Part shown: positions 2,658 to 58,687 of the stretch, piece after piece
Position numbering within the stretch: the stretch's first letter is position 1
Layout: every line of letters begins with the position of its first letter
Source: Nitzschia sp. DOCU1
Taxonomy: Eukaryota; Bacillariophyta; Bacillariophyceae; Bacillariales; Bacillariaceae
DNA: 64,000 nt
Direction of reading: 5' to 3'
Assembly: GCA_951394045.1 (NCBI GenBank)
Contig: OX595997.1
Span: forward strand, 930,001-994,000
The notes under the pieces: model-generated
Databases searched by the model: none
Told to the model about the DNA's origin: nothing
The model's input: only the letters and a program-made list of their open reading frames with translations
Program-made: the position numbers and the translations under genes

Positions 2658-2786
2658 GGTAGTTAGATTTCTAGGTAGGAATTTACGTGAAATTTCTACG
2701 GCTAAGTTTTTCGCACTGCTGCGCTCTCTGTCCGGCAGAAAGTAAGAACTAATTCATCTCTACTAGGGAGCAGAAGTATTAGAGAC

Positions 2787-5700
2787 CTAATCGTACAGTT
2801 CCAAGACTCGTCCAAATTTCTGAGCCATGTTCGGAGAGCGGAAGCGTTCCAGGGAGGCAGGCCGGGACAATTGTGGCGGAAGCCGCTTATCAGCTCGACC
2901 TCGTTCCATTTCAGCCGAGACGTCAGGGTAGTATGCAGGCGAGAGGGGATGCAGCCGGATTGTAGGAAGGGGGCGGGCATTCGACGCAGGCAGCGTTTGG
3001 GCATCTTTGCTACCCATGGTGGCTTTGGATTTATTTTTTTCTTTCCGCTTGAAAGCTCCCAGGAAGCCTCGACGAAGCCCCTTAGTGCGCAACTTATCCT
3101 GGCCTAACCCTAACGACATGCAACTAATTGCGCGAGTCTCCCGCGGGTCGAAAATCTCGACTGTCTGGGCTGCCTGGGAGGTCTCGGCAGATACATTGAC
3201 CTCATCTTCATCTGAGATCAAAGACACCTCGATCGCTCCTCGTTCTATGTCGCTCTTGCGCTTAAGTTCCTTAGCCGTAAGTTCGGGCAACTTTCGCTGC
3301 GGAAAAGAGTCGGCACTATCGACGGAATCGTCCAAATCAACAGCCGTGTCACTAGTATCCAGATCGCGTTTCGGTTTCGTGTCGTTCTTGGGCGGAGATA
3401 GCCAAGCTGGCTGAGGTTCCGGGGGCTCTTGTCGCTTTGGGCGGGCTGGCTGCTTTTTGGCGTCATTCGTTGGCGGTCGGTTTTGCTGAGGGCTTGGTGG
3501 ATCATGGGCTTGCTGCTTGGCAATAGCACCTGACGGCTTTCCTGGTGCAATATCACCCCCTAACAAAGCTGATGCCCAAGCATCGAATTCAAAGAGACCA
3601 GTAGGTTTGGATTCTGTCGATGCTTCCGTCGGAAAATCCTCTGCTTTCTTCCGACCGAAACCGGTATCAAAGAAGATTGCAGGGTCGTACGGAAAAGCTT
3701 CGATCAATGATTGATCTCTTCGTGCCTGCCTATTAGCGTCGTGAACTGGGTGTTCAATCGGAGCCCTCGACGACTTTGGTGATGCAGATTCTTCCGCCAT
3801 CGATATTTCCGGCGATCGCAGCCTGCTGTCATCCAAGTCCAAGCCCCTTCGAACGGGCATCGCGGTTTCCACCCCTGCAGCGTTTTCCATGGACGTGTCG
3901 CGCGTTTCCACTCTTTCAACGCGTGCAGGGATTTCCCCATCCCAAGGATGGGCTCGATGCGACTTGGTAAGCGCGGGAAGAGGCTTCAGGGCATAGGCTT
4001 GCTGGGGCTCGTCCCCAGGCTTTTCGACATGTTCATTCTCTCTGCGTTCTTGCCGAGTAACAGTAACCCTGACGCGTTCATCAAAAGAACGTAAAGGAGA
4101 CGGAGGGCGCGCACGTCCTTCGGTGCTAGCTTGAGTGACAGTAACTCTCACTCGATGGTCTTCAAATTTGTCGGACTTAGGGGCTCTTTCTGACGAAGAT
4201 GCGTCATTCGAGTCCTTTACGTTGATGGTCAGAGGAGGGGGGTGCTTCCTCATTTGTTCCCGCCGCTCCTTGGCCTTGCGCAAACTTTTGCCTTCCTCGT
4301 GTGGCCTGGTAGGCATTTCCACTGGTTGGAACTTTGGCGTAACATAATTATTCAGCCCAGAAGGCCGAGGGCGACGGAAGGTGGAAGTCGACGGGGAGAA
4401 ATTCTTGCTTGATCGTGATTCTTGGTCCTGAGCAAATTGAGCTTGAGATGACAGAATTCGCACTTCATCGTGATATGGTTTGCCGGAACTTTGGAATGTT
4501 GGATTAGTAATGGATGACACAGAAGTTTCGTCGTCAGAATATTCGTCATCCATTTGGGATGAAACTTCTTCGCCGCCGAAAGGATTCGGAGACTGTCGTT
4601 GTCCAACTTCCCCCAAGCCTCCACGGTAAGCCTGATCGGGGGCGACCGCGTGGCTAGTACTTTCTTGGCGCAAAATGGAATCAATCTGCGCCAAAGCCTG
4701 GGATGGATTCGCTCGATTGACAGCACTCAACTTTGCCACCAAATCAGCAACGTTATTGTGATCAACATAGCCGACTGCTGGCTCCGAGCCGAAAACGCCA
4801 TCCCGCTCAATTTGCGAGCCTTCATCTGAGGGCCGACTGCGAAAAGTTGTAGCCGGGTCGGGAATAGGAAAAGTGGGAGACGCCCTTGCCTTTTCCTGCC
4901 AATATGCGGCAATTTCTTCATGTTGTTTCGATCGACTATCGCCAGCTATTTCAGGTTCCTCCCGAGAACGACCGTCCTTCGGCATGGAGCGATTAATGGG
5001 CGTCGGAGGCCGCCTGTCCAGCGAAGAGGATCGCTTTGAAGGGCCATCACGAATGGTAGTCATTCTTCGAATTGGCTCACGGGGCAAAAAACTTTCTGAT
5101 CCGTAGGGAGAGTCTGAGACCTCGCTCTCCACCAGCAGATGCGGCTGGGAAGCGTTCGATGAATGACTTCCTATCGAGCTTAGTCCCCGACCACCTTCTG
5201 AACTGTATGGAACGTGCGAATCATGGCTCCACGATTGTCTTTGGGGTGGAGTTCTCCCTGAAGAGCGACTACCATTCGGCTTGAGCATTTCCTGTCCGAA
5301 TCCCAGGGCCAGTCGCTCAACCGAAGCTCTTGAATCCTTGGACCTTGGATCGAGAGAACGGGATCGACTTTTGGTGTTTGGTAAAGGAGGAGGTGACTTG
5401 TTCCTTCCCCTAGGCTCCTGAGAAAACTCTTGCACGCGTTGCTTGATTAGCGGGGACGGAGAACGCCGACGAGGCCGGGATTCGTCTTGCTCAAAATTTC
5501 GGGGTATAGATCGGGAGCGAACTCTTGCGGCTTCTACATTCTGGTCACGCTGCTCTCTGACAGCGATGTGGGGTCTTCTTTCGGTTGTCTCCCGATAGGC
5601 GTCCGACTTGGATCTTGTCTCGTGGCGTTCTGGTGGGCGCCGGAAAGCACCCGCGCCACCATCTTCATTATTAGAAGAATGAAGTGGAGGCATGTTCAGA

Positions 5701-6938
5701 GACGCAGGTTGGTCCTGGCTTCGCGAGGACGATCGAACATTCGATCTACCCCTTTCGTCGTAAGGACTCGATATCGAGGTTACCTGCGTCTCGTCGCCCC
5801 TACTATCGGTACGGGAACGTGACACCGTTGCACGGGAAGTTACGGGAGAAAAATCACGCGGTACATTCGATCTACCGCCTTCGTCGTACGGACTCGAGAT
5901 CGAGGTTACCTGCGTCTCGTCGCCCCTACTATTGGTACGGGAACGTGACACCGTTGCACGGGAAGTTACGGGAGAAAAATCACGTGGTATGCTTGTGATT
6001 GAGGCACTACCTCGAGCTACCATGGCTGCTTCATAGTACTTGGACTTAAAGTTGGCTGTGTTGTCACTTTCGAAGGTACCGGCTTTACGAATCATCGCAC
6101 GACCTGTAGAGAAGGTCCGAGATGGCTGGCGCTCCCTGGCAAGTTTTTGATCCAGTCTACCCCCAGGAGATTGGATACTAACTTGCAAGACTTCTTCATT
6201 GCTCCACAATTGCTTCTTGATATCCTGAACGGACGCGGTCGACGGAGTTTCGATACTACTCCCAAAGCTGTCATCAGGATCCCGAGATACTGGTCCATGC
6301 TGCGCAGAGTTTCTCTGCTCCAGCAAATTCTTCTTGGCCCTCATTTCCCCATAATGCTGTGCCAAACTTTTCTTCCCTGTCTTCCCTTCGATGTGGGGCG
6401 CAGAGTAAAATTCCCGCGTTTGGGATTCTCGATCATTCTTCGCCGGAAAGCTGAAACTACTACTAGTTTGCACCGATGGTCCATACGAAAGCTGCTCATG
6501 ATGATAGTTGTCCACAACAAACTGCAATTCAGGATCGCCATTTCGACGGAGACGGTTAAAGTTTCGTATTTGCTCTGCAGTCGTTCCTGCTCCAAGATCA
6601 GAGGCGGGTACATGTAGATGGGAAGCCTTCTGGATATAACGATCATATTCCGTCGATACTCCAGAATCACTCACACTCTTTCTAACACGAGGATATCGTG
6701 AAGGGGGGGTCGAATATCTTCCCGACTGACGCTGTTGCTGTTGGCCGTAGTTGGAGTTGCTGGTTGACATGCTGGTAGTTTCGGTCGTTCGGGTGCTGTA
6801 AGAGGCAGATGCTTGTTGCTTGTGATAATAACGTGCCGAGCTGCTGGAATTCGAATCCGCTGTAGATGTCGAAGTATCGTACAGCGACGGAGGGTGCCCG
6901 TGACTCGCCCCAGTGTACTCCGAGGCCATCGATTCCAT
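2787..6938 (-). CDS. Large intrinsically disordered protein, function unknown (1383 aa)
   Basis: A single open frame from an ATG at 6938 to TAG at 2787. The composition is dominated by Ser, Arg, Pro and acidic residues with many SP, RS and RSRS dipeptides, and no catalytic domain is recognisable. A 42-residue unit containing PRDFSPVTSRATVSRSR is present twice in tandem (about 5737-5988). A second internal echo is RVRVTVT, occurring twice about 30 residues apart. The least biased part is near the C-terminus, around FPYDPAIFFDTGF and LFEFDAWASALLGGD. The style suggests a scaffold or a heavily phosphorylated cytoskeletal or nuclear protein, but this is inference. Its stop codon lies 130 bp from the LINE ORF1 start on the same strand. 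Confidence 0.7.
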   Translation of the reverse strand: MESMASEYTGASHGHPPSLYDTSTSTADSNSSSSARYYHKQQASASYSTRTTETTSMSTSNSNYGQQQQRQSGRYSTPPSRYPRVRKSVSDSGVSTEYDRYIQKASHLHVPASDLGAGTTAEQIRNFNRLRRNGDPELQFVVDNYHHEQLSYGPSVQTSSSFSFPAKNDRESQTREFYSAPHIEGKTGKKSLAQHYGEMRAKKNLLEQRNSAQHGPVSRDPDDSFGSSIETPSTASVQDIKKQLWSNEEVLQVSIQSPGGRLDQKLARERQPSRTFSTGRAMIRKAGTFESDNTANFKSKYYEAAMVARGSASITSIPRDFSPVTSRATVSRSRTNSRGDETQVTSISSPYDEGGRSNVPRDFSPVTSRATVSRSRTDSRGDETQVTSISSPYDERGRSNVRSSSRSQDQPASLNMPPLHSSNNEDGGAGAFRRPPERHETRSKSDAYRETTERRPHIAVREQRDQNVEAARVRSRSIPRNFEQDESRPRRRSPSPLIKQRVQEFSQEPRGRNKSPPPLPNTKSRSRSLDPRSKDSRASVERLALGFGQEMLKPNGSRSSGRTPPQRQSWSHDSHVPYSSEGGRGLSSIGSHSSNASQPHLLVESEVSDSPYGSESFLPREPIRRMTTIRDGPSKRSSSLDRRPPTPINRSMPKDGRSREEPEIAGDSRSKQHEEIAAYWQEKARASPTFPIPDPATTFRSRPSDEGSQIERDGVFGSEPAVGYVDHNNVADLVAKLSAVNRANPSQALAQIDSILRQESTSHAVAPDQAYRGGLGEVGQRQSPNPFGGEEVSSQMDDEYSDDETSVSSITNPTFQSSGKPYHDEVRILSSQAQFAQDQESRSSKNFSPSTSTFRRPRPSGLNNYVTPKFQPVEMPTRPHEEGKSLRKAKERREQMRKHPPPLTINVKDSNDASSSERAPKSDKFEDHRVRVTVTQASTEGRARPPSPLRSFDERVRVTVTRQERRENEHVEKPGDEPQQAYALKPLPALTKSHRAHPWDGEIPARVERVETRDTSMENAAGVETAMPVRRGLDLDDSRLRSPEISMAEESASPKSSRAPIEHPVHDANRQARRDQSLIEAFPYDPAIFFDTGFGRKKAEDFPTEASTESKPTGLFEFDAWASALLGGDIAPGKPSGAIAKQQAHDPPSPQQNRPPTNDAKKQPARPKRQEPPEPQPAWLSPPKNDTKPKRDLDTSDTAVDLDDSVDSADSFPQRKLPELTAKELKRKSDIERGAIEVSLISDEDEVNVSAETSQAAQTVEIFDPRETRAISCMSLGLGQDKLRTKGLRRGFLGAFKRKEKNKSKATMGSKDAQTLPASNARPLPTIRLHPLSPAYYPDVSAEMERGRADKRLPPQLSRPASLERFRSPNMAQKFGRVLELYD
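5737..5988 (-). repeat. Two-copy tandem repeat, 126-bp unit, inside the coding sequence
   Basis: The 126-bp unit beginning ACATTCGATCTACC at 5737 recurs at 5863 with only a few differences visible by eye, for example CCTTT/GCCTT and a Ser/Gly-type codon change. 126 bp is 42 codons, so the reading frame is kept. The near-identity points to a recent duplication. Confidence 0.85.
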
Positions 6939-14562: not shown

Positions 14563-17340
14563 ATGGCATACAATTACCTCCACCAGTCGAACAAGAACCA
14601 TGGAAAATCGCCGCATGTGGGATATTACTCTTCTGTTGCTGCCCGAAGCTACAATGCTCCGAAATCGCAAGGTCTTCCTCGGTTTTCGAAAAGGCCGGAT
14701 CTACGACCGTCGCTGCCTCGGGCCCGTCAGGGTCAGTCCCCTGCGCCAGCACATTACAGCAAAATGCCTCCCATGCAAGACTCGATGGTCGAGGGCCGCT
14801 TCGAAATGGAGCCCATGTCGCAGCTCACCTGCAACTCGCACGAGAGCTCCGAAACAAGTATGAACGAAACGTACCACGAAGGTCCTCCGCTACATCAGAA
14901 CTCATCTGCATCGGGCTGTGGGTCCACTCAGAGCACCTTTGGATCGGCGGCGTCGGGACGACGCTCGTCGTCAAGCAACATGATGCTCCCGCCCTATCAA
15001 CAGCAGGCGCCAAGTTTGTTCGCTGGCCTTGCAACTGTATCCACGTCTCGTTCCCCGTGGTTGAAACAGCAGCAAGCGGTCCGACAACCACAGCATCGGT
15101 CGGCAACTTCTCTGCAGGCGTTCAACAATGGGTTGGCCCCACGAGAACAGTTGCTTCGCGCACACACAAATCAGCCTGTCGGAAAACCCGTTGCAAAGGT
15201 TCCTCTAGTTGCCGGAGGCTGCATGGTACTCGGCTCGTCCTCCTCGGTCGCCAGCAATGGCTCCAAGCAGCGACAAAGTCGTTCGGTACAGTTCACTGCG
15301 CCCGACGATCGGAGCACTAGTGGCACGCAAGGTTCGGTCTGCACTATGAGTAAACAAGGCCATCCTCCTCAAGTGGATGTCAATGTTGAAATTATGCAAG
15401 CCCTCAAGAATGAGTTGCTTGCGCTATTTGAAGCCAAACAACAAAATTTCAAGGCTCTAGTCAGCGAGGAAGTGCAAACTCTGGTCACGACTCGAGTCAA
15501 CGACCAGGTACAAACTATCAAGAATGAAGTCAGTGACCACATGGCCAATCTGGAATCCAAAACGCGGGAAAGGATCGCCTCCGATTCCCTGGCCCTAGAC
15601 GATCGCGTTTCCGCCAAGTCCTCGGAGCTTGATGCTCGGATGGAACGATTGGCGCTTTCATCGGAAGTTCTACAAGAAAATGTCCAATACGCCAAGGCAG
15701 ACTTTGCATCTATAGTCGACTCTGCTATATCTAAATTTGAGGCTTCCAAGTCTGAATTTGAGGACAATCTAGAAACCACCAAGGAGAATTTGGAGCAGGG
15801 CCGTCAAGTCTTGGTGGCGGAAGGTAGGCGCCAGGTGGACTTGATCAAATCATCTGGCAAGTCGATGATGAATGAGATCAGAGAGATGGCAGAGGCAGCT
15901 ACTAAGAAATTTGCCGTGAGTGTACGAAACCTTATCACACCCTCAATCATGACGGTAGGATCACTATTGCAACGCTCCAATGTGGAGCAGGAAGAATCGT
16001 CCCTTGTTGGTAACCAAGGCCGTACAATCTCGCCACCAGCCGCCCAAACCAAGAGCCAGCGATCTTCTCCTCGGTTAGCCCAGCCTATGGAGGAAGACTC
16101 TTTCCGCGAGGAGATAGTACCCGCCAAACGAGGCCGCACCATCTCGCCCATGCCTCCCAGAGGAATAGGGAAGGGCGATCGTTCGTCTACTCTTTCGACA
16201 TCCCGGGAGGTCAGGGCGGCGGACAAGAATTCTCTCTCTGATGTCAGTGCATCTAGCAAACGAGGCCGTACCATCTCGCCCCCGCCTCCAAAGTCCAAAG
16301 TCAAGCGATCGTCTACTAGTTCGGCGTCTAAGGCTGCAGGTGACGACTCTTCATCTCGCGGCAAACGAGGCCGTACCAAATCGCCGCCTCGTTCCAACGA
16401 TGCGCGATTGTCTGTGCCACAGAAACGATGCCGTGGTTCCGTCAAGGAAACAGAATCGAAGGAGTTCTCCCAAGATACAAAGTCTAGTGTGGAATCTGCA
16501 ATCTCACTGGGTGTAAGTAGCCGCGATAACTTCAGTGGCACCAACCACAAGACTCCGACTCGCCTCCCTCGCCCTGGATTCGAACCGCTCGAATTGCGTA
16601 CGGCGGGAAAGTCGGTGCCAGAAGCCAAGTCTGCAGCCACTCCAAAAAAGACCAAGAGTAAGCCCGTCAAGAATACGAAGAAAAGGGGCACCAAGTTGAC
16701 ACCACGAAATGTGTTGTCGCAAGATACGGCACTTTCTTCGATTACTGCTACTCAGCACGAGCCGTCACCCTCGCTCCGATCCTCTACCAAGAGGCTCTTT
16801 AGCAGCCAGCCTGATGACAAAGAGAACATTTCTCCTATTTCCTCCACCAAAGACAACAGGTATTCTTTTGTTACTCCGGTTGGTGGTGCAGCAGGCAAGC
16901 GTGGATCTACTAGTTGCGATGATGGCCTTACTCATGTGCTTGAAGTCACTGGCCGGGGGATGACGAAGCGTTCTTTGGAACCGACCAAGAAGAAAGGATC
17001 GCCGTTGAAGACTATGGAGCTTTCTTCTTCTCAGGAAAGTAGCGTCCCTATGGAGGAAATCGTCACTCTCGATCAACCAAATTGTTCACCCTTGAGTCAG
17101 TGGACGGTGGCCAACGTAAAGAAAAAGAAGACTGCTCGGACTACTACTAGGAAAGCCGCTGCCACGAGGCGCCTCTCATCGGAGAAGTCACCGGTTGTTC
17201 GCCGCAATCGCAAGACCTACGCCAAGCCGCGCAACCAGAAGTCGTCAGGTGACTCAAAGTCCCGTGGCAAGCAGAGAAGCGATGACGACTTTTCATTTTC
17301 CTTCGGGGACTCTGAGCAAGTCAGCACATCGTCCGCCTAA
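14563..17340 (+). CDS. Coiled-coil nuclear-type protein with SP repeats and KEN box (925 aa), function unknown
   Basis: The start is the ATG at 14563 in a good context (GCCATGG). Residues ~1-270 are low-complexity, rich in Ser, Gln and Pro. Residues ~275-460 form a long helical, probably coiled-coil segment (VSEEVQTLVTTRVNDQVQ and following). After that come four copies of a KRGRT(I/K)SPPP-like motif between 16017 and 16400, each a basic patch followed by a Ser-Pro site of the kind cyclin-dependent kinases use. A KEN tripeptide in DDKENISPISS matches the degron recognised by the anaphase-promoting complex. The C-terminus is Lys/Arg-rich with an acidic end. A cell-cycle-regulated chromatin, kinetochore or spindle protein is a reasonable guess, unproven. 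Confidence 0.7.
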   Translation: MAYNYLHQSNKNHGKSPHVGYYSSVAARSYNAPKSQGLPRFSKRPDLRPSLPRARQGQSPAPAHYSKMPPMQDSMVEGRFEMEPMSQLTCNSHESSETSMNETYHEGPPLHQNSSASGCGSTQSTFGSAASGRRSSSSNMMLPPYQQQAPSLFAGLATVSTSRSPWLKQQQAVRQPQHRSATSLQAFNNGLAPREQLLRAHTNQPVGKPVAKVPLVAGGCMVLGSSSSVASNGSKQRQSRSVQFTAPDDRSTSGTQGSVCTMSKQGHPPQVDVNVEIMQALKNELLALFEAKQQNFKALVSEEVQTLVTTRVNDQVQTIKNEVSDHMANLESKTRERIASDSLALDDRVSAKSSELDARMERLALSSEVLQENVQYAKADFASIVDSAISKFEASKSEFEDNLETTKENLEQGRQVLVAEGRRQVDLIKSSGKSMMNEIREMAEAATKKFAVSVRNLITPSIMTVGSLLQRSNVEQEESSLVGNQGRTISPPAAQTKSQRSSPRLAQPMEEDSFREEIVPAKRGRTISPMPPRGIGKGDRSSTLSTSREVRAADKNSLSDVSASSKRGRTISPPPPKSKVKRSSTSSASKAAGDDSSSRGKRGRTKSPPRSNDARLSVPQKRCRGSVKETESKEFSQDTKSSVESAISLGVSSRDNFSGTNHKTPTRLPRPGFEPLELRTAGKSVPEAKSAATPKKTKSKPVKNTKKRGTKLTPRNVLSQDTALSSITATQHEPSPSLRSSTKRLFSSQPDDKENISPISSTKDNRYSFVTPVGGAAGKRGSTSCDDGLTHVLEVTGRGMTKRSLEPTKKKGSPLKTMELSSSQESSVPMEEIVTLDQPNCSPLSQWTVANVKKKKTARTTTRKAAATRRLSSEKSPVVRRNRKTYAKPRNQKSSGDSKSRGKQRSDDDFSFSFGDSEQVSTSSA

Positions 17341-17845: not shown

Positions 17846-20800
17846 CTACCCCGCAAGTTTTCGGGCCCGGGCCTCTGCTCTTTTCGCTGCTTGTTCCTTT
17901 CGCTTCTTTTCTCCTTTGGCGAGTTCTCGGAGCTGTTCAGCTTGCCGTTCCGCATGCTGGAGCAGTCGTCGCATTTCTTCTTCTCGAATTGCGGATGCTG
18001 CCAAACTGTTTTGCGTCTCTTGTGCAAATCGCGCCGCTTCTTCTCGCTTTTCTTGTGCTTTTCGCTCTGCCTCGGCACGCTTCCTAGCACGCCGTTCCAC
18101 TTCTTCTGGGTGGTTGTACAAGGGGCAGTTCTGTGGAGTCGCGGTCGCTCGATTGTGGCCTTCCCGTTGGCAGGCGCCGCATGTAGTCTTCTTACTACCA
18201 GCTGGAGTTGACGCCGCTGCGTTAGCCTGCTGATTGGTTAGAGCAGCTCGCGTGCCAATCTCGGCATCCAAAGCGAATTGGGGGCCCTCGTCGTACAATA
18301 GATTTTCAACGGAGGCCACCTGGAAAGTACTCCGCCGCTTCCCACAGGCTTCACATTTCTCAACTCCAACATCATTTTGGAAAGTGCACATGTTGCAGTT
18401 CCATGCAGCAGCTTGACGTGCAACGGGGGCAGTAGTCGCTTGGTAGGAGATGGATCTTGGTTCTTCACAAACCTCACAGGTCAACGAGGCGACACCGTTC
18501 TCGAGAGTGCATACTCTACATGTCCAAGCACCACTGCTGGGGGTATTTGTGGTAGCACAACTTGCCGTGTTAGCAGAAGAGTTGTTTCCGCCACCACCAA
18601 ACTTGCGAAGCCTGGCTTCTCGAACAGCAGCCGCAGTGGAAGACGATTGGACTGAAATTGGGATCCTACTAGCAGACGGAGTAGGCTTGGGGGGTCGACC
18701 CAGATGCGCGCTTGGAGTAGACCTAGCAACCGTGTTCTCACCTCGATGTGCTTGTCCCGCTGCACTTGATCCCACAGATCGGTGATCTTTTGGAATCCCG
18801 ATGCCTTCAAAATTGCAATGCGGGCAGTTTCGAGTCCCCGAGCCTTGGACCCAGACGGATAAACACTCCCGATGAAAGGTATGATCGCAAGGAGTAGTCA
18901 TTCCTTGATTATCTTCTATTGCGGTAGAGCAAATCAAGCAAGGCAAAACCGATGCGAAATTCAGGCTGCGGCGGGCATCAGGACGAATGGTTGCTGCGGG
19001 TGCGAAGACGGCACCAGCCTGGTTATGATTCGGTTGCTTGTTCCATTCACTTCTAATGGATCGCATCTCTGCAGTTGTCCTGGTGACGAGGAGTCTTGCG
19101 TGCACATTGATTTGAGCAAAGAGGCACCAAAAGAGGACAAAATCTCTCGGAACAAGTGGACATACGTCAGCATGAAACAATCCACTAGCTCGAAGCCTGT
19201 CAGCGGCAAAGTCGTCAAACGTCTGTGTTCCACCCTGTGGAAAGGCATGGTACGTTGCCTTCCACACTTTGTTCACATCATCAAAAAATTCCTTGTCGTA
19301 CTCGTACAAGCCCGTAAGTAGAATGAGGGGTACAGTAGGTGATCTGGCCCCATTCGTTGCGGAACCAGCCCGCATGCTAGCAGCTCGTGAGGACGAGCTT
19401 GGTACCTGATGGACAACTATGACTTCATCATCGTCGACATCTTGCGAACGACGAGGACGCTTTCCAGCCAATGGGGTTACTTCAATCTCGTCATCTTCGT
19501 CGTTCAGCTCGATGACCGGACTTTGAAGATTCTTCTTCGGTTTGGAAGACCTTGCTCGCTTCTTTGATCCACTATTGCCGCTAACAACATGCAGGAGGAT
19601 GACGGAATCTTGGGATTCCGGTGCAGCATCGGATGAACTGTCGCTGTCGTCGCTATCCAGGAGCACAACTTCTTCGTTACCAGATCCTTGAGAGATAGCC
19701 TCCGAGCGGCGATGGGGCAGAGGATCATCGCTGATTTCGACGACATCTTTTGGCACGACACCAACACTCGTTTGATTCAAAGCAACAGATTGCAAGGTAG
19801 TTATGATATTTCCCTGCTGGACCTTTCTTACGTAGTCATCTGCCTCCAACGTGACCACACTCCCCCGTGCAGGTATGCTGATAGACGGCTGGGCATTTGA
19901 CGATCGAGCATTCGTGCAAAACTGAGCATAGGTCAGAGTGCTGACACCATTCCCATCTTGTGCAAGAATATCTCGGATCATGAACAGAGATTTGATTGTC
20001 TCGTTGAATCCCCGAGTAAAGTGAATGATGCAATCATGGTTCACTTGAAGGTTCCTCAACACAATCTCTAACCTATCATGGGTCATTCCTGGCCCGTGAC
20101 GCTCGACCAACTCCTGACAATACTTGCAGCGAGCTGCACTATTGCATTTTTCTTCACCGTCACGATTTAGACATCGGGCACCTTCGATGATAAACATCAT
20201 CTTGGAGCAGCCACTGCGTTTCATTCGACACAGCTGACACCCACCCGAGCATTGCCGAGCGCCATCCAATCGGACGCAATCCAAACGACGTCTCCCCCTC
20301 CCAGTGACTGAATCAGCCAAATCACTCCACGACTTCCGCTCAATTATCAGCGGCAGAATGGTTTCCTGGTCAAACGCATTCTTGGTGGAGAAGAGATAGT
20401 CGCCGGCTGGTAGCTCCCGCTGGTCCGTTTCGATAGATGCATGAACGCACCGTTCCAAAAGCCGATCGGTATAGGTAGCGTCTTCTCGGCTGTCGATAAT
20501 AATTTTAATGCTAGAAGCTGTTGCTGTTAGAGCATTTGCCCTTTCTGTCTTCATTGAAGTAGTCTCCATGAGGTTCTCCAAGCACCGTTCGTAAGCCAAG
20601 CAGCACCTTCCAACATCTTCACCCGGACGCAACAGACTGAACTTCGGCTCGTCTGATCCTGGAATCATCTCCTTGCGAACTAGGTCCTTGGCCACCAGAT
20701 TCTCTATGCATGCAAAGGCATTGCGACCTCTAGCCTGGCGATCGTACAAGTTGGATCGACATCGTTGCTGGGCCAACTTTTTCAGGCGGCTTTCCGAGAG

Positions 20801-21895
20801 GCTGTATTCACGCACTTCATTTCCTTCTTCAGAGACTTCGACTAGTGTAGCCAGAATCGAAAATGGTCCAGAACTGTACTCGGGAACATACGGGAGGCGA
20901 TTTTGCTCACGGGTGGCTCTCTTTGCCCGCTGATCCGTCAGTGCAACGCGCTCATGATTTCGTTGTAACGCAGGATGGTTACCTTTAAAGCAATGCAAGC
21001 AGCACACCAGTTTGTAGAACGGGCATTGCTCCTCTAAGCAGATCGAGTCTGCTGTCGACTGGCAAGTACCGCAGACCTTGTTGTTCCCGTTTCGCGATGG
21101 GGAAGGGTCAATGGCGAGCCGACGGCGCAGTCGCTTTGACGGAGTTGATCCTGGAGTAGTAGGTCGACGAGGTGTACCGGCAGGTGCCCCGGGTTTTTGA
21201 TGTCTAGCAGAGTCGGCTTTGACAAATTCTTCTAGCGCGTCCTGATTCGGCCCCACTCTCGCCCTGATAGCCGCCAATTTGTCCAACTTGTTCTGCAAAA
21301 GCACCCAGCAGGTCGTCGGCCTGCCTTCTCGGTTGTTAGCGCTCACAATATAAGAATTGCGATTGCGATGATTTCTTCCTTCTTGTTGCCAAACGGGTTC
21401 CATCAAAGCGACCAGACCGTCCAAGTTGTGGCATGGCTTCACATTGAGGTCCTCATAGCGATCCATACGTTGAATCACCTTCTTCATGGTTGCCAAGCAT
21501 ATCACTCTATCCTTTATGGACTTATTCGCCCAGCGATCAGGCCAGGGGTCCAGCACTGCTCCATCCAGAAGTGGCCGAACATTTGCTTCCGTTCGATCGT
21601 CTTCCGGCAGCTTTTCCACAGCGTTGAAGTCTTTCATCACAGCCGTAAGAACAGCAGATAACTCCGGGCAGGCGCAGCTCTCGATCGTATCACCATCCTG
21701 AATATTGTGAGAGGCCAGAGACGAATTCAAGGGCAATTCTTTCCCATCAAAGTAGAAATGAGTTCCTTTCTTCTCCAACTTGAGTTCCGAAACGATATCT
21801 TCCACACGCTGCGACGTGTCCACGGTGATTTTTCGGGTTTTCCCCGGTGCCGAATAGGCGGTGGTGGGACGAATCGTCAGAGCCAGACGAACCAT
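17846..21895 (-). CDS. MUS81/XPF-type ERCC4 nuclease fused to ubiquitin-like, SIM, RING-H2 and RanBP2 zinc-finger modules (1349 aa)
   Basis: A single-exon protein starting at the ATG at 21895. In order: ubiquitin-like domain (1-77); Cys/His cluster (275-317); winged-helix-like segment (~400-432); ERCC4 nuclease (464-645) with IIIDSRE (D468), AGDYLF (D499) and the catalytic ERKSWSDLADSV, i.e. ERKxxxD (E519-R520-K521, D525), interrupted by a Cys-rich insert (CSGGCQLC...CKYC); the C-terminal part (NHDCIIHFTRGFNETI) resembles MUS81. A linker (717-831) holds up to five hydrophobic-acidic SUMO-interacting motifs such as VVLLDSDDSD and PVIELNDEDD. Then an unassigned globular block (850-945), a RING-H2 finger (986-1027), two RanBP2/NZF fingers (1124-1147, 1165-1188), a CxxC...H...C knuckle (1239-1260) and a basic coiled coil to the end. 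All nuclease residues are present; the helix-hairpin-helix pair usual in this family is not seen. Likely a structure-specific nuclease with ubiquitin-ligase and SUMO/ubiquitin-reading modules. Confidence 0.85.
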   Translation of the reverse strand: MVRLALTIRPTTAYSAPGKTRKITVDTSQRVEDIVSELKLEKKGTHFYFDGKELPLNSSLASHNIQDGDTIESCACPELSAVLTAVMKDFNAVEKLPEDDRTEANVRPLLDGAVLDPWPDRWANKSIKDRVICLATMKKVIQRMDRYEDLNVKPCHNLDGLVALMEPVWQQEGRNHRNRNSYIVSANNREGRPTTCWVLLQNKLDKLAAIRARVGPNQDALEEFVKADSARHQKPGAPAGTPRRPTTPGSTPSKRLRRRLAIDPSPSRNGNNKVCGTCQSTADSICLEEQCPFYKLVCCLHCFKGNHPALQRNHERVALTDQRAKRATREQNRLPYVPEYSSGPFSILATLVEVSEEGNEVREYSLSESRLKKLAQQRCRSNLYDRQARGRNAFACIENLVAKDLVRKEMIPGSDEPKFSLLRPGEDVGRCCLAYERCLENLMETTSMKTERANALTATASSIKIIIDSREDATYTDRLLERCVHASIETDQRELPAGDYLFSTKNAFDQETILPLIIERKSWSDLADSVTGRGRRRLDCVRLDGARQCSGGCQLCRMKRSGCSKMMFIIEGARCLNRDGEEKCNSAARCKYCQELVERHGPGMTHDRLEIVLRNLQVNHDCIIHFTRGFNETIKSLFMIRDILAQDGNGVSTLTYAQFCTNARSSNAQPSISIPARGSVVTLEADDYVRKVQQGNIITTLQSVALNQTSVGVVPKDVVEISDDPLPHRRSEAISQGSGNEEVVLLDSDDSDSSSDAAPESQDSVILLHVVSGNSGSKKRARSSKPKKNLQSPVIELNDEDDEIEVTPLAGKRPRRSQDVDDDEVIVVHQVPSSSSRAASMRAGSATNGARSPTVPLILLTGLYEYDKEFFDDVNKVWKATYHAFPQGGTQTFDDFAADRLRASGLFHADVCPLVPRDFVLFWCLFAQINVHARLLVTRTTAEMRSIRSEWNKQPNHNQAGAVFAPAATIRPDARRSLNFASVLPCLICSTAIEDNQGMTTPCDHTFHRECLSVWVQGSGTRNCPHCNFEGIGIPKDHRSVGSSAAGQAHRGENTVARSTPSAHLGRPPKPTPSASRIPISVQSSSTAAAVREARLRKFGGGGNNSSANTASCATTNTPSSGAWTCRVCTLENGVASLTCEVCEEPRSISYQATTAPVARQAAAWNCNMCTFQNDVGVEKCEACGKRRSTFQVASVENLLYDEGPQFALDAEIGTRAALTNQQANAAASTPAGSKKTTCGACQREGHNRATATPQNCPLYNHPEEVERRARKRAEAERKAQEKREEAARFAQETQNSLAASAIREEEMRRLLQHAERQAEQLRELAKGEKKRKEQAAKRAEARARKLAG

Positions 21896-28503: not shown

Positions 28504-31500
28504 TTACCAACCACACAACAACTGTCGCAGCACCTGGAATTGCTGTCTTGGAAGCGGCTTTGTAAAGATATCTGCTTGTTGTTTGTCGGTAATAATGTGT
28601 TTGACTTGAATTTTTGGGTCGCTGCCGTCGAGTCCTTTCATCGTCCAAGATCTGAAGTGATGATACTGAATTGCGAGATGCTTGGTACGCGGGCGCAGCT
28701 TTGGAAGTTTTGCCAACTCGATGGCTCCAGCGTTGTCTTCGAAGATAGTGACGCAAATTTTTGGTTTCGAAGTGATCAGATCGACACCATGAGACTTCAA
28801 TTCATCTGTCAGATTGATGAGGTAAATCACTTCTCGCGCAGCGGTGCTTAATGCCATGTATTCGGCTTCGGTAGTGGAAAGCGCAATTGTCGATTGCAGT
28901 TTCGAAGACCACACGATTGGACATCCGGCATACTTGATAACATAGCCGGTTCGGGAGAGACAATCCCTTGGGTTTTTGGTGTTTTCCTTTCGAAAGCCAC
29001 CGGCAAAGTCAGCATCAACGAAACATTCAATTCCTTTTGATTCGTCAATCTGCATGATAATGCCTTGATCCCGCGTTCGTTTTAAATATCGAATGATGCG
29101 CTTGACGGCCTTTTCATGACTCATCTTCGGATTCTCGCAGAATCTCGCGCATTGATGAACGGCAAACGTGATTTCTGGCCTTGTCGTTGCCGCCAAATAA
29201 TTGAGTTGTCCGATGATTGAACGGTAATGAAACTCGGTCTTTCTTTCTGCGCCGTCTTCATCACGGTGCAAAATCGCATCGGCTGGTGTGTCGTGCATTC
29301 GTTGATCTTTGAGATTGCATTGCTCGATTATTCGATCAATAAATGCGGGTTGCTTCATCGAGATTCGGTTTCCACTCAATCGCTCAACCTGAATTCCGAG
29401 ATATGCTGACAGTGGGCCTTCATCTGTAAGGATGTAACCCTTGTTCGCAAGGTCAACAATCAACTTGTCTGCATCTGCTTTATTCGGCGTCAAACAGACG
29501 GCATCGTCGACGTACAGAATGAACAAAATGTTGCCTTTAATGAACAGGCATGGATCAGTTTGGCTTCTCTTGAATCCGAAATCCTCGAGGCCTTTGGAAA
29601 TATGCTGATGCCAGGTCAAACTAGCATCGACCAATCCGTAAACGTTTTGAATTAGCTTGACACAAGAGTCTTGCTTCGAAGGATGAGGGGCTTTTTCATC
29701 GAGGATCATCGCGCCTTTGGAATCGACACGAAATTTTTCGGGCACGTTCATGTAAATGTCCGTTTTAACTTTTGCCTGCGGGAAAGCGAGAACAAAATCA
29801 ATCTGCCGAGCATGCCATCCATAGACTTCCGAAAGTGTAAGCATTAGTCGCACAGTTGACCAAGCGACTACAGGAGAGAACGATTCATCGTAGTGAACGC
29901 CTTTGATGGTTTGGCCTCCGTGGCAACAGAGGCGAGCCTTGTACTTGGTTATTTCGCCGAATGGATTGCGCTTGCGTTTAAAGGACCAAATTGCCATGAT
30001 TGGCCTATAATTGTAACCTTTAGAACGCATTTCGGCTTTAGTCGTCACCCTCCAATGTCCACGACGAGTATGATCATCAATTTCCTTGACCATGGCTTCC
30101 AGAAACTTATCTTTGTCTGGTTGCCGCATCGCTTCCTTGAGGTACATCGTGTCGCTATCTGCCAGACTTGCAGGAAAGGCGACAAACTTTGTCAACTCGT
30201 TGAGGCTATTGTCGTCCAAGCGAGACAGCACATTGGTCACGTGATGAGCAATGGAGACCAGAGAACGAAGTCTTGGTAATAACTCGGACTCTGTAAGCCG
30301 GCGAGTTCGTTGGATTACCCGGCCACTTCTCGTTGTTCTAATCGGTTCATCGGCAAAGAACGGAGACTGAATTGCTCCCTCTTGCTCTTGCATGGGATTT
30401 GGAGGTTCTTGACTAGGCTGTTCATCGTTGAATTCATCGAGGGCCAAATCTTGATCTTCGTTTGCGGCATCGTCCCCCTCGTCATCAGGAATTGGGAAAT
30501 CGTCGTCTTGAGTCGGCTCTTCGGCTGCCGGAACGGGAGGCTCGAAAGGAACCTGCAGATGCATTGGAATTGCTCTGCCTGTATAATCGCTTGGAGAGAA
30601 ATCAAACGAAGGTTCTTCTTCGGGCTCCTCTGATAATCCAGCCTTATCGGCCCATAGCTGAGAAAAATTTTTGTCACGACTTGGAGTGTCGAACTTGTTA
30701 TCGTAGATGCAATGAAATTGTGGCGACACGTAGCCTGTCGTCGGATTCAGAATGAGTGCAACACTTGGTGCGTGCTGGGCTGAATGGCCCAGATAAACGC
30801 CAACTCTTGATCGATCGTTCCACTTTGGTTGTGTTCCCCCACTCTGAAGCGCTGCCTGCAGAACATAGACGGGGCAACCAAAGGGATGCAAATATTTCGT
30901 TGTCGGACGAACTGGAGCTCGTGTGAAGAACTCTTCTGGACTCTTGCTATGCCCATTGCGGGGCAAAATTCGTCTCGTGTAGCTCGCATGCCGCAAAGCA
31001 TACGGCCACAAATGAGCAGTCACAGCGGGATTGCGATGAGATGCATGAGCTAGCATTGCTCGAGCAGAGTCGGTGAGGTCTTGGATGCGACGTTCGGCCA
31101 CCCCATTTTGATGATGAGCGCCAACGCCGCAAAAGGTTAGCTTTTGGCCACAGCGGTGCACCTCTTCCCTAAAACCTCTAGATGCAAAAATGCCATTGTC
31201 GGCATGATATTGTTCAATTTTGACGCCACGATCGAGTGCAAATTTCTCGAAGGCTTGTTTTGCTTCAATGGTGTCCTCCGCCGAAGTGGAGGCTTGCACG
31301 TGAACGTAGTCGAGATCCGAGTAGTGGTCCACAAAAATCGTAGCCACCATGTATCGACTCTTCGTCAATTTACCAGTCGTTTGTCCCACGAGACCTGGAA
31401 CGCCGGAAATTAATTGATCAACCGAGACGCATTCGCCTGGTCGAGTTGCCTTTTTGATCTTTCCTTGTTGTTCTGCCGACCCTTTAGTTCGCCACGGTCG

Positions 31501-32952
31501 TCGCTTCTGCTTGCCATACATGCATGCAGGGCATACGACGTTCCGTATTTTCTTCAGCTTGGGTGGCAGGATTCCAAGTTCGGCAGCCCAACGAATATAT
31601 TGATATGGGGCATGACCGAGCTTGAGATGCCAGGAAAGAAAGAGCTCTTCGTCTCGATGAGTAATCGGATCATCGATCGAAACAGTTGGTTCCTTTTGAT
31701 TCGGACCCACAGAAAAATCCACCCTCTTTGCTTTCGACGGTGTTGCGAAGCTCTCTGCGTCATGATCCTGAACGGTGTCGTCGTCAGAATCCGCAGCAAT
31801 TGACATAGCTTCTCCCATTTCGTCGTCATCATCATCCTCGATAACGTTCGGGAAGGCTTGGAATGCCGAAACAAAGGCCTTGAACTCGCGATATTCGCCC
31901 GTAGTGTAAACAGTAGGCAGATTGTTCGAAGGATCAATCTTGCACGTCACCAGGGTTTTTCCACGATTCCAAGATAGAACGTAGTCATCGTCCAAGTCAT
32001 CGGGGGATAGCATGAAAGTTGCCTGATCTCCCTCTGTTTCTCCCGCCTCGTATCGCTTCTTGTTGCGACATTTTTTCCAGTTGTGTGGGCAGAGCAACCG
32101 ATACGGAGCGTTTGGAGCATAGTAGCAAGTATCGTCTTCGAGATAGACGTTGTTGCCGTTGATGTCCTTAACACACCAAGATACCTCGCCAACATGCGTA
32201 ATATTGCTTGCACCAAAACCTGTTACCAATGACTTGTAAGGTCTGATGTTCCGCAAGTCACTTTTGAACGGTGTCATGGAGGCGGAGCTCGCCGAGTCGA
32301 CAACTATTGGAATGGAGTCAGAGTCCCAGTCACCGATCAAGCGGGGCGAGCTCTCCTTTTCAAGCATTGCCATGAATGCGCAATGTTCATGTTCACAGCT
32401 TGAGTGCCGAGCCTTCGATACTTTGAACAGTCCTTGGAATGAAATGTCGGGCAATTGGCTCGTCAGGAGAAAAGTCAGAATCGAGAAAACGATAATGGGC
32501 AGAAATCTTCGAATGTTTGCCCCTTTAGGAGCCACAGCGATAATAATGTCGCTTGGCAGGGCAAAGAATTTGTCGGGCGGTCGCCGGTAAAGGAGACACG
32601 ATCCAACGAGAAGAAATAACAAAATGGGTTCTAGAACAGAGCAAGGTGATAACTCGTTCATGACTTGACAATCATCCGCAATCACTGTCGCAAGCCATGG
32701 TATCAGAACCAAAAAGCTCACTCGCAACTGGATGTGTGAGAGGACGCAGTAGGTCTCAGATAGGGCACAAATCGTGATCGGGGGCCGGCGGGCTGGCCTG
32801 ATCTTTTGCGGAGCATGCTTGTGTCTTGAAAACACTGAGTGAACCGTATAAGGATTTGGTTCACCCACGTTAAAATGCGCAAATACACAAAGCTTCATAA
32901 AGATACAGACTAGCCAGGCTAGTCGCCAGATGAGCCTGCAGGATGCCACCAT
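28504..32952 (-). CDS. Copia Pol: protease, integrase, reverse transcriptase, RNase H (1482 aa)
   Basis: The ATG at 32952 is in a strong context (GCCATGG). Residues 1-170 hold four hydrophobic segments (about 8-24, 76-91, 106-122, 148-164), unusual for a retrotransposon polyprotein. Then: aspartic protease (IPIVVDSASSASM, Asp219, with Ser-Ala where DSG/DTG is usual); integrase with an HHCC zinc region (HLKLGH...CPACMYGK) and DDE core (FVDHYSD, HADNGIF, HQNGVAERR); reverse transcriptase with ARQIDFVLAFPQA and the catalytic YVDD (LFILYVDDAV); RNase H (CFVDADFAGG, STTEAEYMAL, DNAGAI, TKHLAIQYHH, QQADIFTKPLPR). All motifs are intact. The frame is the same as gag, separated by one TGA and seven codons. 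Confidence 0.96.
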   Translation of the reverse strand: MVASCRLIWRLAWLVCIFMKLCVFAHFNVGEPNPYTVHSVFSRHKHAPQKIRPARRPPITICALSETYCVLSHIQLRVSFLVLIPWLATVIADDCQVMNELSPCSVLEPILLFLLVGSCLLYRRPPDKFFALPSDIIIAVAPKGANIRRFLPIIVFSILTFLLTSQLPDISFQGLFKVSKARHSSCEHEHCAFMAMLEKESSPRLIGDWDSDSIPIVVDSASSASMTPFKSDLRNIRPYKSLVTGFGASNITHVGEVSWCVKDINGNNVYLEDDTCYYAPNAPYRLLCPHNWKKCRNKKRYEAGETEGDQATFMLSPDDLDDDYVLSWNRGKTLVTCKIDPSNNLPTVYTTGEYREFKAFVSAFQAFPNVIEDDDDDEMGEAMSIAADSDDDTVQDHDAESFATPSKAKRVDFSVGPNQKEPTVSIDDPITHRDEELFLSWHLKLGHAPYQYIRWAAELGILPPKLKKIRNVVCPACMYGKQKRRPWRTKGSAEQQGKIKKATRPGECVSVDQLISGVPGLVGQTTGKLTKSRYMVATIFVDHYSDLDYVHVQASTSAEDTIEAKQAFEKFALDRGVKIEQYHADNGIFASRGFREEVHRCGQKLTFCGVGAHHQNGVAERRIQDLTDSARAMLAHASHRNPAVTAHLWPYALRHASYTRRILPRNGHSKSPEEFFTRAPVRPTTKYLHPFGCPVYVLQAALQSGGTQPKWNDRSRVGVYLGHSAQHAPSVALILNPTTGYVSPQFHCIYDNKFDTPSRDKNFSQLWADKAGLSEEPEEEPSFDFSPSDYTGRAIPMHLQVPFEPPVPAAEEPTQDDDFPIPDDEGDDAANEDQDLALDEFNDEQPSQEPPNPMQEQEGAIQSPFFADEPIRTTRSGRVIQRTRRLTESELLPRLRSLVSIAHHVTNVLSRLDDNSLNELTKFVAFPASLADSDTMYLKEAMRQPDKDKFLEAMVKEIDDHTRRGHWRVTTKAEMRSKGYNYRPIMAIWSFKRKRNPFGEITKYKARLCCHGGQTIKGVHYDESFSPVVAWSTVRLMLTLSEVYGWHARQIDFVLAFPQAKVKTDIYMNVPEKFRVDSKGAMILDEKAPHPSKQDSCVKLIQNVYGLVDASLTWHQHISKGLEDFGFKRSQTDPCLFIKGNILFILYVDDAVCLTPNKADADKLIVDLANKGYILTDEGPLSAYLGIQVERLSGNRISMKQPAFIDRIIEQCNLKDQRMHDTPADAILHRDEDGAERKTEFHYRSIIGQLNYLAATTRPEITFAVHQCARFCENPKMSHEKAVKRIIRYLKRTRDQGIIMQIDESKGIECFVDADFAGGFRKENTKNPRDCLSRTGYVIKYAGCPIVWSSKLQSTIALSTTEAEYMALSTAAREVIYLINLTDELKSHGVDLITSKPKICVTIFEDNAGAIELAKLPKLRPRTKHLAIQYHHFRSWTMKGLDGSDPKIQVKHIITDKQQADIFTKPLPRQQFQVLRQLLCGW

Positions 32953-32973
32953 GGCTTCCCACAGGCGTCCCCT

Positions 32974-58273: not shown

Positions 58274-58687
58274 GGCTGCAAGTAGTAAGGGCAAGAGGCC
58301 TTTTAGATAGGAAAGGAACGAATGGAATTCCAAAAAGCAAAAGCAACCTTCGTTTTATTGGGGCCCCCACCATTGCCACGAAAAGGAAGAATGCGCGTCA
58401 ATCCGATCATGCACGTCGACAACGACGATGGCGAACGAACTCGCAGTTTGGCGATCTCGCTCGCAGTCGCCGACCGTGATTGGACTCAAAGGACCTTCCA
58501 TTTTCACCTATACACATACATATGTAACATACGTGGATTTGCCTTTTGTCACTCTCATTCATCCACGATCTTCTTTTCCTTTTTTGATGTGGCACCAACT
58601 TTCACTTTTGCTGTTTATTATTGGATTGCTAGTAGGTAGACGGCACCTTCTTGTTGCTGCCGTCGATATAAAAGCCAGTAGCAATCA
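58274..58687. other. Intergenic region between divergent genes
   Basis: 414 bp between the C2 gene and DNA ligase IV; part of it may belong to a 5' exon of the C2 gene. No motif recognised. Confidence 0.4.

Follow-up and report, generated by a model that had tools for sequence, protein, structure and literature searches.

A diatom protein family joining a MUS81-like nuclease core to putative SUMO- and ubiquitin-binding modules

In MUS81, which works with a non-catalytic partner (EME1 or EME2), a winged helix precedes an ERCC4 domain whose active site is GDx(n)ERKxxxD, and in the MUS81/XPF family an (HhH)2 domain aids DNA binding by the catalytic subunits (as described in PMC3834828). ZRANB3 carries an NZF finger, which helps its recruitment by polyubiquitylated PCNA, on one chain with an HNH nuclease and an SNF2 motor; the domains listed in PMC5481773 include no ERCC4, RING or ubiquitin-like (UBL) domain. 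According to PMC8599992, SLX4-SLX1 reads ubiquitin through UBZ4 and SUMO through a SIM to place structure-specific nucleases, and SLX1 pairs its nuclease with a RING-type finger; the two are separate chains, the nuclease is of the GIY-YIG type and the SLX1 RING is used for contact with SLX4. FAN1 and SNM1A, as described, are repair nucleases of other folds that bear a finger for ubiquitin binding on the same chain. Their finger types are not those of the diatom protein considered here, and a FAN1-like gene is separate in its genome. The SUMO-targeted ubiquitin ligases (STUbLs) RNF4 and Slx5/Slx8 combine SIMs with a RING and, to our knowledge, carry no nuclease. In yeast, Mms4, the partner of MUS81, is described as an Slx5/Slx8 target (PMC8161396).

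Here, we analyse a gene in the window, the whole stretch of 64,000 nucleotides of Nitzschia sp. DOCU1 under study, whose predicted product shares features with each of these systems. Like MUS81, it has a winged helix and then an ERCC4 domain with the same active site, but it differs in a cysteine-rich insert within the nuclease and in the lack of a recognised (HhH)2; it adds a UBL, SIM-like motifs, NZF fingers, a zinc knuckle and, in some members, a RING, and it coexists with a canonical MUS81. It resembles ZRANB3, FAN1 and SNM1A in holding a finger of ubiquitin-binding type and a nuclease on one chain, SLX1 in pairing a nuclease with a RING-type finger, and the STUbLs in having SIM-like motifs and a RING, although the RING of the diatom family is limited to one clade. 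Judged by sequence comparison, the gene is a member of an undescribed family spread across diatoms. The sequence-only reading knew of no described protein with this order of domains; none was found in the literature searched for that point, yet relatives are already deposited under automatic names (P0022 and P0033 as “Crossover junction endonuclease MUS81”, P0026 as “ERCC4 domain/Ring finger domain”). A search of PMC12618581 by term yielded nothing on the window's gene, and a Skeletonema proteomics table in PMC7841394 lists an ERCC4-domain protein.

Architecture and distribution of the family

The uninterrupted frame claimed from the sequence is borne out (Table 1), and the genome search found a single full-length copy. 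Most relatives displayed in the alignment begin with the same MV residues. Protein searches returned at least 104 relatives, and all 13 whose organism could be read are diatoms. Our census of 77 comprises the window protein and the 76 of 104 relatives of at least 1150 aa, with 28 shorter matches left out; a larger collection holds 114 relatives, fragments included. Counts by alignment column exceed those by stricter regular expression (active site 75, cysteine insert 66 and zinc knuckle 60, each of 77). Three protein searches for relatives beyond diatoms, restricted by length and shared words and with the scored candidates capped (7991 and 7992), gave among the matches listed none with E worse than 1e-29, and all of these were taken as this family. 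No relative was found in viral contigs, with the window protein and the family alignment as queries, or in phages, with residues 333-660, and a viral origin was thereby removed from consideration.

Table 1. Features of the gene and its predicted product
Feature	Residues	Position in window	Strand	Evidence
Whole gene		17846..21895	minus	Single 1349-aa ATG frame, open throughout
Ubiquitin-like domain	1-76	21668..21895	minus	Rad60-SLD, residues 18-72, E 3.2e-5
Conserved N-terminal domain without assigned fold	78-232	21200..21664	minus	No Pfam match
B-box-like Cys/His cluster	275-314	20954..21073	minus	Pattern in 30/77; no Pfam match
MUS81-type winged helix	336-430	20606..20890	minus	PF21136 in 7/18 scanned members
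ERCC4 nuclease domain	467-638	19982..20497	minus	Pfam E 8.8e-16; hhalign to canonical MUS81 96.7%
ERKSWSD active-site motif	519-525	20321..20341	minus	E, R, K, D columns 77/77
Cysteine-rich insert and flanks in nuclease domain		20117..20278	minus	Each Cys in 71-77 of 77
Linker with five SIM-like motifs	680-829	19409..19858	minus	5 vs 0.36 in shuffles
Conserved region D without assigned fold	850-962	19010..19348	minus	In 101/114 relatives, fragments included
RING-H2 finger	986-1028	18812..18940	minus	Pfam zf-RING_2 E 3.3e-8
REARLRKF motif (also written REARLRRF)	1092-1099	18599..18622	minus	A, R, L columns 77/77, F 76/77
NZF finger 1	1121-1147	18455..18535	minus	PDB match HOIP/RNF31 NZF (1120-1147) E 5e-4
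NZF finger 2	1162-1188	18332..18412	minus	PDB: TAB3 NZF (1161-1188) E 0.007, TAB2 NZF E 0.02
Zinc knuckle CGACxxxGHNR...CPLY	1239-1260	18116..18181	minus	C, C, H, R 77/77, last Cys 76
Basic, probably coiled tail	1265-1349	17849..18103	minus	Sequence; coiled is our reading

The UBL, winged helix, ERCC4 domain with its cysteine-rich insert, SIM-rich linker, NZF fingers and zinc knuckle are conserved across the family. Complete MMETSP transcripts (“type:complete”) lie behind three relatives, P0017, P0057 and P0062, each of which holds the nuclease and NZF halves on one transcript; the RING is absent from all three and the UBL from P0017. Thus, at the level of the family, the two halves do not come from separate genes, though this holds for RING-less members. 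The winged helix, the cysteine insert, the B-box-like cluster, region D, the REARLRRF motif and the zinc knuckle had not been recorded in the sequence-only reading.

The N-terminal ubiquitin fold proposed from the sequence agrees with a Rad60-SLD profile match, which in the window protein scores just above the cut-off (24.1 against 23.8 bits). Among 18 scanned members (window included), Rad60-SLD matches in three and Pfam ubiquitin in four, at E up to 0.1, and E32, N57, S59 and E72 are invariant in all 18 as aligned. The adjoining domain has W122, R130, K138, Q142 and R146 invariant in 18 members. “B-box-like” is our own label for a cluster without Pfam support, which is confined to the RING-holding clade. 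At the other end, zf-CCHC_6 matches the zinc knuckle in six of 18 scanned members and not in the window protein.

The nuclease core and its kinship to MUS81

The proposal of an ERCC4 nuclease with an intact ERKxxxD motif stands: the profile match is significant, as is that to the RING, the window protein holds an intact GDx(n)ERKxxxD and the active-site columns are invariant (Table 1). By sequence comparison, the nuclease appears nearer MUS81 than XPF. Against proteins of the same genome, hhalign gave, besides the canonical MUS81, 95.9% and 91.5% for two MUS81-like paralogues and 8.9% for XPF, and HMM scores were 35 bits for MUS81, 36 and 22 for the paralogues and 1.3 for XPF. The preference is weaker on PDB reference pieces (human MUS81 21 bits, A. 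pernix XPF 20, human XPF 13). Against it, the sole nuclease matches in the PDB profile search were two XPF chains (E 0.0098, 48 positions); the same search returned RanBP2/Nup153 matches, attributed to the paired fingers, and residues 333-660 alone matched nothing in the PDB at E 5. The hhalign alignment to canonical MUS81 covers ERCC4 only, and the insert (C540, C549, C553, C556, C563, C575, C584, C590 and C593), which probably binds zinc, falls mostly in its gaps.

PF21136, the winged-helix model, has its best match among other members at 9.8e-5 (threshold E 0.1) and does not match the window protein itself. The genome's own canonical MUS81 frame gave no winged-helix match, hence no comparison there, and in the genome search the model found nothing, control genomes being likewise silent. 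Pfam showed no HhH or EME1-MUS81_C match in the window protein, nor was either among the families listed for the 18 scanned members (threshold E 0.1); over this genome, the EME1-MUS81_C model hit the canonical MUS81 locus only, below its cut-off. Since a separate canonical MUS81 is encoded in the genome and no (HhH)2 was found here, the protein is not a standard MUS81 subunit. The gene would represent a diatom offshoot of the MUS81 lineage.

Putative reader modules and the RING-H2 finger

The SIM-rich linker is supported in the window and in the family. By our own rule for these short motifs, residues 662-857 hold five, where shuffled sequences average 0.36 and none of 2000 shuffles reached five; family linkers average 2.70 against 0.27 when shuffled, and 68 of 77 have at least two. 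A UIM pattern occurs in 19 of 114 relatives (0.25 in shuffles), directly past the nuclease in the rows displayed.

The two NZF-type fingers, also predicted earlier, find their PDB counterparts in HOIP and TAB3 (Table 1). The NZF pattern is W-x-C-x2-C-T-(F/L/Y)-x-N ... C-x2-C, and finger 1 follows it closely, with W, C, C and N in 77 of 77, T in 76 and the last Cys pair in 69. In finger 2, 62 members keep the W and 61 the T. The Pfam RanBP2-type finger matches the window protein at E 1.7e-3, under its cut-off, and fingers of this type can have RNA or Ran, not ubiquitin, as their ligand.

The RING-H2 pattern arose in none of 5000 shuffles of the window protein. Of the 77 long members, 20 have it, the window protein among them, and 57 lack it. 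Its bearers all lie, with Seminavis and Cylindrotheca, on one side of one branch of the 77-member tree, a quick search with midpoint root and no bootstrap. The RING label changes at least six times on this tree, indicating several gains or losses; P0078, inside the RING clade, has neither the RING nor the B-box pattern. In one subclade, SIM-like motifs occupy the place of the RING. All 20 fingers have Pro in the last Cys pair, and 19 of them have the Trp. The residue that follows the last Cys is Asn in 13 of 20, a place often taken by Arg or Lys in active ligases. Thus, the ligase proposed from the sequence holds as far as the RING-H2 itself, and SIM-like motifs and a RING do share a chain in the window protein, but a finger found in 20 of 77, on one side of one branch, is not part of the family's core function.

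Proposed role and alternative readings

On balance, we lean towards the view that these proteins are branched-DNA endonucleases of the MUS81 lineage recruited by SUMO and ubiquitin marks, with a ligase finger added in some diatoms. The domains, conservation and lineage described above are the starting point from which we infer binding, cutting, ligase activity and a site of action. An ERCC4 endonuclease with its catalytic site intact, a winged helix of MUS81 type and no recognisable (HhH)2 would have acquired modification readers: the tandem NZF fingers (with the UIM in some relatives) probably bind ubiquitin chains, the SIM-like motifs probably SUMO, and the UBL and REARLRRF motif probably partners. 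Recruitment would most likely be to stalled forks or recombination intermediates that bear ubiquitin and SUMO marks, K63-ubiquitylated PCNA being one example, and branched DNA may be nicked there side by side with canonical MUS81. In one clade, including the window, a RING-H2 C-terminal of the SIM-rich linker, which either this clade gained or other members lost, could allow ubiquitylation of SUMO-marked partners or of the protein itself. Of the earlier suggestions, a nuclease reading both marks is supported by the conservation of the active site, SIM-like motifs and NZF finger 1; that it performs by itself the work of a complex in other eukaryotes is unproven, given the separate MUS81 and the lack of a recognised (HhH)2. 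SLX4 gave no match in the window's genome, control genomes being likewise silent.

A bolder version, possible but unlikely, is that in the window lineage one chain is at once an endonuclease for branched DNA and a SUMO-targeted ubiquitin ligase complete in itself, RING-less relatives reading the marks only. If true, the chain would find forks marked by SUMO and ubiquitin and cut them, and it would clear the site or stop the reaction by ubiquitylating itself or neighbours that carry SUMO, a nuclease bearing its own recruitment and removal signals.

It is rather doubtful that the protein instead serves programmed recombination in meiosis, taking over MUS81-EME1 work in diatoms without a recognisable EME1. 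EME1 was not found in the six diatom datasets of Patil et al. (2015), which also report MUS81 missing from T. pseudonana (PMC4647503), and other Thalassiosira have members of our family; the window's genome, however, retains canonical MUS81. Less probable again is that the RING/NZF/SIM half is a STUbL-like business end, the ERCC4 domain and winged helix binding branched DNA whether or not they cut it. The RING-H2 and SIM-like motifs on one chain and the lack of a recognised (HhH)2 would suit such a ligase or adaptor, but most long members lack a RING while the catalytic columns are invariant in all 77, although a relic kept for binding DNA should have lost them.

Region D was first read, from its pattern, as EME1-like, which would make the chain a MUS81-EME1 fusion with D as a degenerate second ERCC4-like half. 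We regard this as improbable. One of 21 sampled D regions matches Pfam ERCC4 positions 79-128 (E 0.068), and against the family's own nuclease C-half D gives 4.4% in hhalign; the 21 aligned columns are in the register expected, and none of 40 shuffles exceeds 1.2%. However, the PDB profile search returned no EME1, and hhalign to human EME1 and MUS81 gave 0.2% and 0.1%, below the shuffle maxima of 1.8 and 2.5%. With a small ERCC4 profile, D averages -1.4 bits, slightly above shuffles (-2.6) and reversals (-1.9), and none of 101 D regions reaches 4 bits, as some controls do; these controls were reversed and shuffled sequences only, random slices having been dropped as some held nuclease pieces (up to 29.5 bits). 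Other Pfam families beat ERCC4 in other rows (DUF4268, E 0.0083). Finally, nothing was found in favour of an artefact of gene model or assembly fusing two genes, and this is highly implausible, as the frame is open from end to end, 76 long relatives align, and the order recurs in three complete transcripts as well as in relatives on many contigs.

Elsewhere, separate scaffolds and ligases such as SLX4 and Slx5/Slx8 bring MUS81-type nucleases to SUMO- or ubiquitin-marked places or take them away. A MUS81-lineage endonuclease with readers on the nuclease itself, and in one clade a ligase finger, would provide a single-chain system for direct tests of mark reading and cutting. It could also bear on how diatoms cope without a recognisable EME1, and the family makes visible the gain or loss of a RING upon a constant nuclease core.

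The gene and its family

The gene at 17846-21895 on the reverse strand is a single open frame from ATG to stop of 1349 codons, and its stop-to-stop frame extends upstream to 21997, just 34 codons more; the start residues of the product are the same in most relatives displayed. The open frame, the Pfam (see table) and PDB matches and a motif count bear out the sequence-only reading of a nuclease, a RING-H2 finger, a ubiquitin-like domain, NZF fingers and a SIM-like linker in one polypeptide. The RanBP2-type finger lies below the curated Pfam cut-off (E 1.7e-3); the first finger matches the ubiquitin-binding NZF structure of HOIP (PDB, E 5e-4) and the second those of TAB3 and TAB2 (PDB, E 0.007 and 0.02, respectively). 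Five SIM-like motifs lie in the linker, where 2000 shuffles average 0.36.

Features of the window protein, its neighbours and related loci of the same genome
Feature	Position	Strand	Observation
Rad60-SLD, SUMO/ubiquitin-like	residues 18-72	-	Pfam, E 3.2e-5
B-box-like Cys/His cluster	residues 275-314	-	
ERCC4	residues 467-638	-	Pfam, E 8.8e-16
Region D	residues 850-962 (19010-19348)	-	W invariant; Y, R, Q near-invariant (21 rows)
RING-H2	residues 986-1028	-	Pfam, E 3.3e-8
REARLRRF motif	18599-18622	-	ahead of the NZF fingers; A, R, L in 77/77 long members
Convergent neighbour	14563-17340		925 aa; repeated KRGRTISP-type motifs; no Pfam match at E 0.001
Reverse-transcriptase element	28507-32973	-	RVT_2 (Pfam), E 9.4e-40; 'Copia-type' is our label
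ATP-dependent DNA ligase gene	58682-62776		DNA_ligase_A_N, E 1.2e-22
L013, nuclease elsewhere in the genome			VRR_NUC, E 2.8e-6; FAN1-like by reading of the sequence
L021, non-canonical ERCC4 protein with SAP domain	1097-4048 of its locus	+	N-terminal SIM-like run VIDLCDSSADE
L022, non-canonical ERCC4 protein with SAP domain	2115-5858 of its locus	-	N-terminal SIM-like run VITLCDSSDDD

With residues 340-660 as query, 104 proteins were retrieved, every one at E 5.4e-30 or better. The organism is legible from the name or taxid in 13 of these 104 rows and is a diatom in all 13: Cylindrotheca (2), Bacillariaceae sp., Seminavis, Chaetoceros sp. GSL56, Thalassiosira (3), Cyclotella (2), Skeletonema (2) and Conticribra. 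A second protein search gave 53 proteins, all among the 104, and a third gave 23, of which 13 had been found previously and the new ones include one from Cyclostephanos. There is one full-length copy in the window's genome, which spans 52 Mb in 63 contigs; five further matches cover the RING part only. The tree of the family suggests that this is the genome of a raphid diatom. The relatives P0017, P0057 and P0062 are complete MMETSP transcripts, so that one mRNA carries both the nuclease half and the NZF half. All three lack the RING, and P0017 also begins downstream of the ubiquitin-like domain. A RING-bearing relative from Seminavis, P0033, carries the source label 'expressed unknown protein'.

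Conserved core and lineage of the nuclease

Among the 77 long members (76 relatives of at least 1150 aa and the window protein), the alignment columns of D468, R470, E471, D472, G498, D499, Y500, E519, R520, K521 and D525 are constant in 77/77, and a stricter regular expression recovers the active site in 75. Nine cysteines of an insert in the nuclease domain and its flank (C540, C549, C553, C556, C563, C575, C584, C590 and C593) are each present in 71-77 of the 77; we infer that this insert, mostly unpaired in the alignment to canonical MUS81, binds zinc. The first NZF keeps W, C, C and N in all 77, T in 76 and the last Cys pair in 69, and the second is less constant (W 62/77, T 61/77). A C-terminal zinc knuckle has C, C, H and R in every long member; of 18 members scanned with Pfam, 6 match zf-CCHC_6. 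To our knowledge, no function has been assigned to the REARLRRF motif.

Five ERCC4 loci are recognized by the Pfam model in the window's genome: XPF, canonical MUS81, the gene described here and two SAP-bearing paralogues. The canonical MUS81 frame matches a solved MUS81 structure (E 1.6e-20), with HHH_8 and EME1-MUS81_C both sub-threshold and no winged-helix match. In hhalign the family profile scores 96.7% (E 3.2e-10) against this canonical MUS81 and 95.9% and 91.5% against the paralogues, compared with 8.9% against XPF; the corresponding HMM scores are 35, 36 and 22, and 1.3 bits. The gap is narrower with reference pieces: human MUS81 scores 21 bits, against 20 for A. pernix XPF and 13 for human XPF. 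A PDB profile search with the family listed two XPF chains (E 0.0098) but no MUS81 among its matches. PF21136, a model of the MUS81-like winged helix, is matched by 7 of 18 members (best E 9.8e-5). Neither Pfam nor the alignment to MUS81 found an HhH domain after the nuclease. According to Fadden et al. 2013 (PMC3834828), the active subunits of this nuclease family include (HhH)2. The window protein is therefore most likely MUS81-derived, yet not a standard MUS81.

Patil et al. 2015 (PMC4647503) did not find EME1 in six diatom datasets, and they list MUS81 as absent from T. pseudonana. Region D, present in 101 of the 114 collected proteins, has a pattern reminiscent of the C-terminal half of EME1. 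One of 21 sampled sequences matches Pfam ERCC4 at the expected positions (E 0.068), and the hhalign score of region D against the family's own nuclease (4.4%) exceeds 40 shuffles. However, the PDB search did not find EME1, direct comparison with human EME1 and human MUS81 stayed at noise level, scores from a small ERCC4 profile did not set region D apart from controls, and no convincing match in Pfam or the PDB emerged from the 21 sampled rows. We do not claim an EME1 half.

Probable ubiquitin and SUMO readers and the changing RING

SIM-like motifs average 2.70 in the linkers of the 77 long members against 0.27 when shuffled, and 68 linkers hold two or more. In 19 of 114 proteins there is a UIM pattern (e.g. 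DDDLQRAIQLSL), where shuffling predicts 0.25; in the rows displayed it lies directly C-terminal of the nuclease, and it is absent from the window protein. Combined with the NZF fingers, these patterns make ubiquitin and SUMO reading the best-supported common theme that the sequences suggest for the family.

The RING-H2 occurs in 20 of the 77, all within one group of 31 rows (SH-aLRT 100) that includes Seminavis and Cylindrotheca. Ten further rows of this group have the B-box-like cluster and no RING, and one has neither, as do the remaining 46 rows, Thalassiosira, Skeletonema, Cyclotella and Chaetoceros among them. At least six changes of the RING label are required on the 77-member tree. A seven-row, RING-less Cylindrotheca-type subclade has two or three SIM-like motifs at the RING position in six rows (P0009, P0010, P0011, P0015, P0017 and P0022; e.g. 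PVYTIDDD), whereas the means after shuffling lie between 0.04 and 0.13; two of these six rows reached 2 motifs when shuffled, and the seventh row has none. An earlier, stricter pattern gave a single such motif in 4 of the 10 rows that have the B-box-like cluster and no RING. It is as if the ligase finger had been traded for extra SUMO binding in this subclade. Because the RING is confined to 20 of 77 members, requires at least six changes and has SIM-like motifs in its place in one subclade, it is, judged by these comparisons, a changing part of the family and not its core. All 20 RINGs keep the Pro in their last Cys pair and 19 keep the Trp; the last Cys is followed by Asn in 13 of them, by Lys in 6 and by Arg in 1.

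Possible function and naming

Given the observed frame, domains, conservation and MUS81 affinity of the window protein, its domain families suggest that the winged helix and nuclease would bind and nick branched DNA, that the NZF pair (plus the UIM in other members) would bind ubiquitin chains, and that the SIMs would bind SUMO. Binding of these marks could place the enzyme at marked stalled forks or recombination intermediates and, in the RING clade, SUMO-marked partners or the protein itself may be ubiquitylated. There are parallels for such readers: the NZF of ZRANB3 helps to recruit it to polyubiquitylated PCNA (PMC5481773), and the UBZ4 and SIMs of SLX4 act as recruiters (PMC8599992). In yeast the STUbL Slx5/Slx8 turns over Mms4, the MUS81 partner (PMC8161396); a nuclease bearing its own SIM-RING pair is therefore plausible but unproven. 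As a speculation, pairing without (HhH)2 may fall to the conserved cysteine insert or to region D.

Public entries of the family bear automatically assigned names. Some are called 'Crossover junction endonuclease MUS81', a label that is misleading at least for the window's genome, since this has a separate canonical MUS81. Among the papers listed in searches of the open PMC literature, none was seen to describe the gene or its domain architecture, in keeping with the initial impression that no protein with this domain order had been described.

Neither of the SAP-bearing proteins L021 and L022 matches HhH. L021 is roughly as near to the family as canonical MUS81 is, and L022 is somewhat more distant. 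There may be several SUMO-linked MUS81 relatives without HhH in diatoms. What appears to be new here is a MUS81-lineage nuclease with putative built-in ubiquitin and SUMO readers, to which one clade adds a RING.
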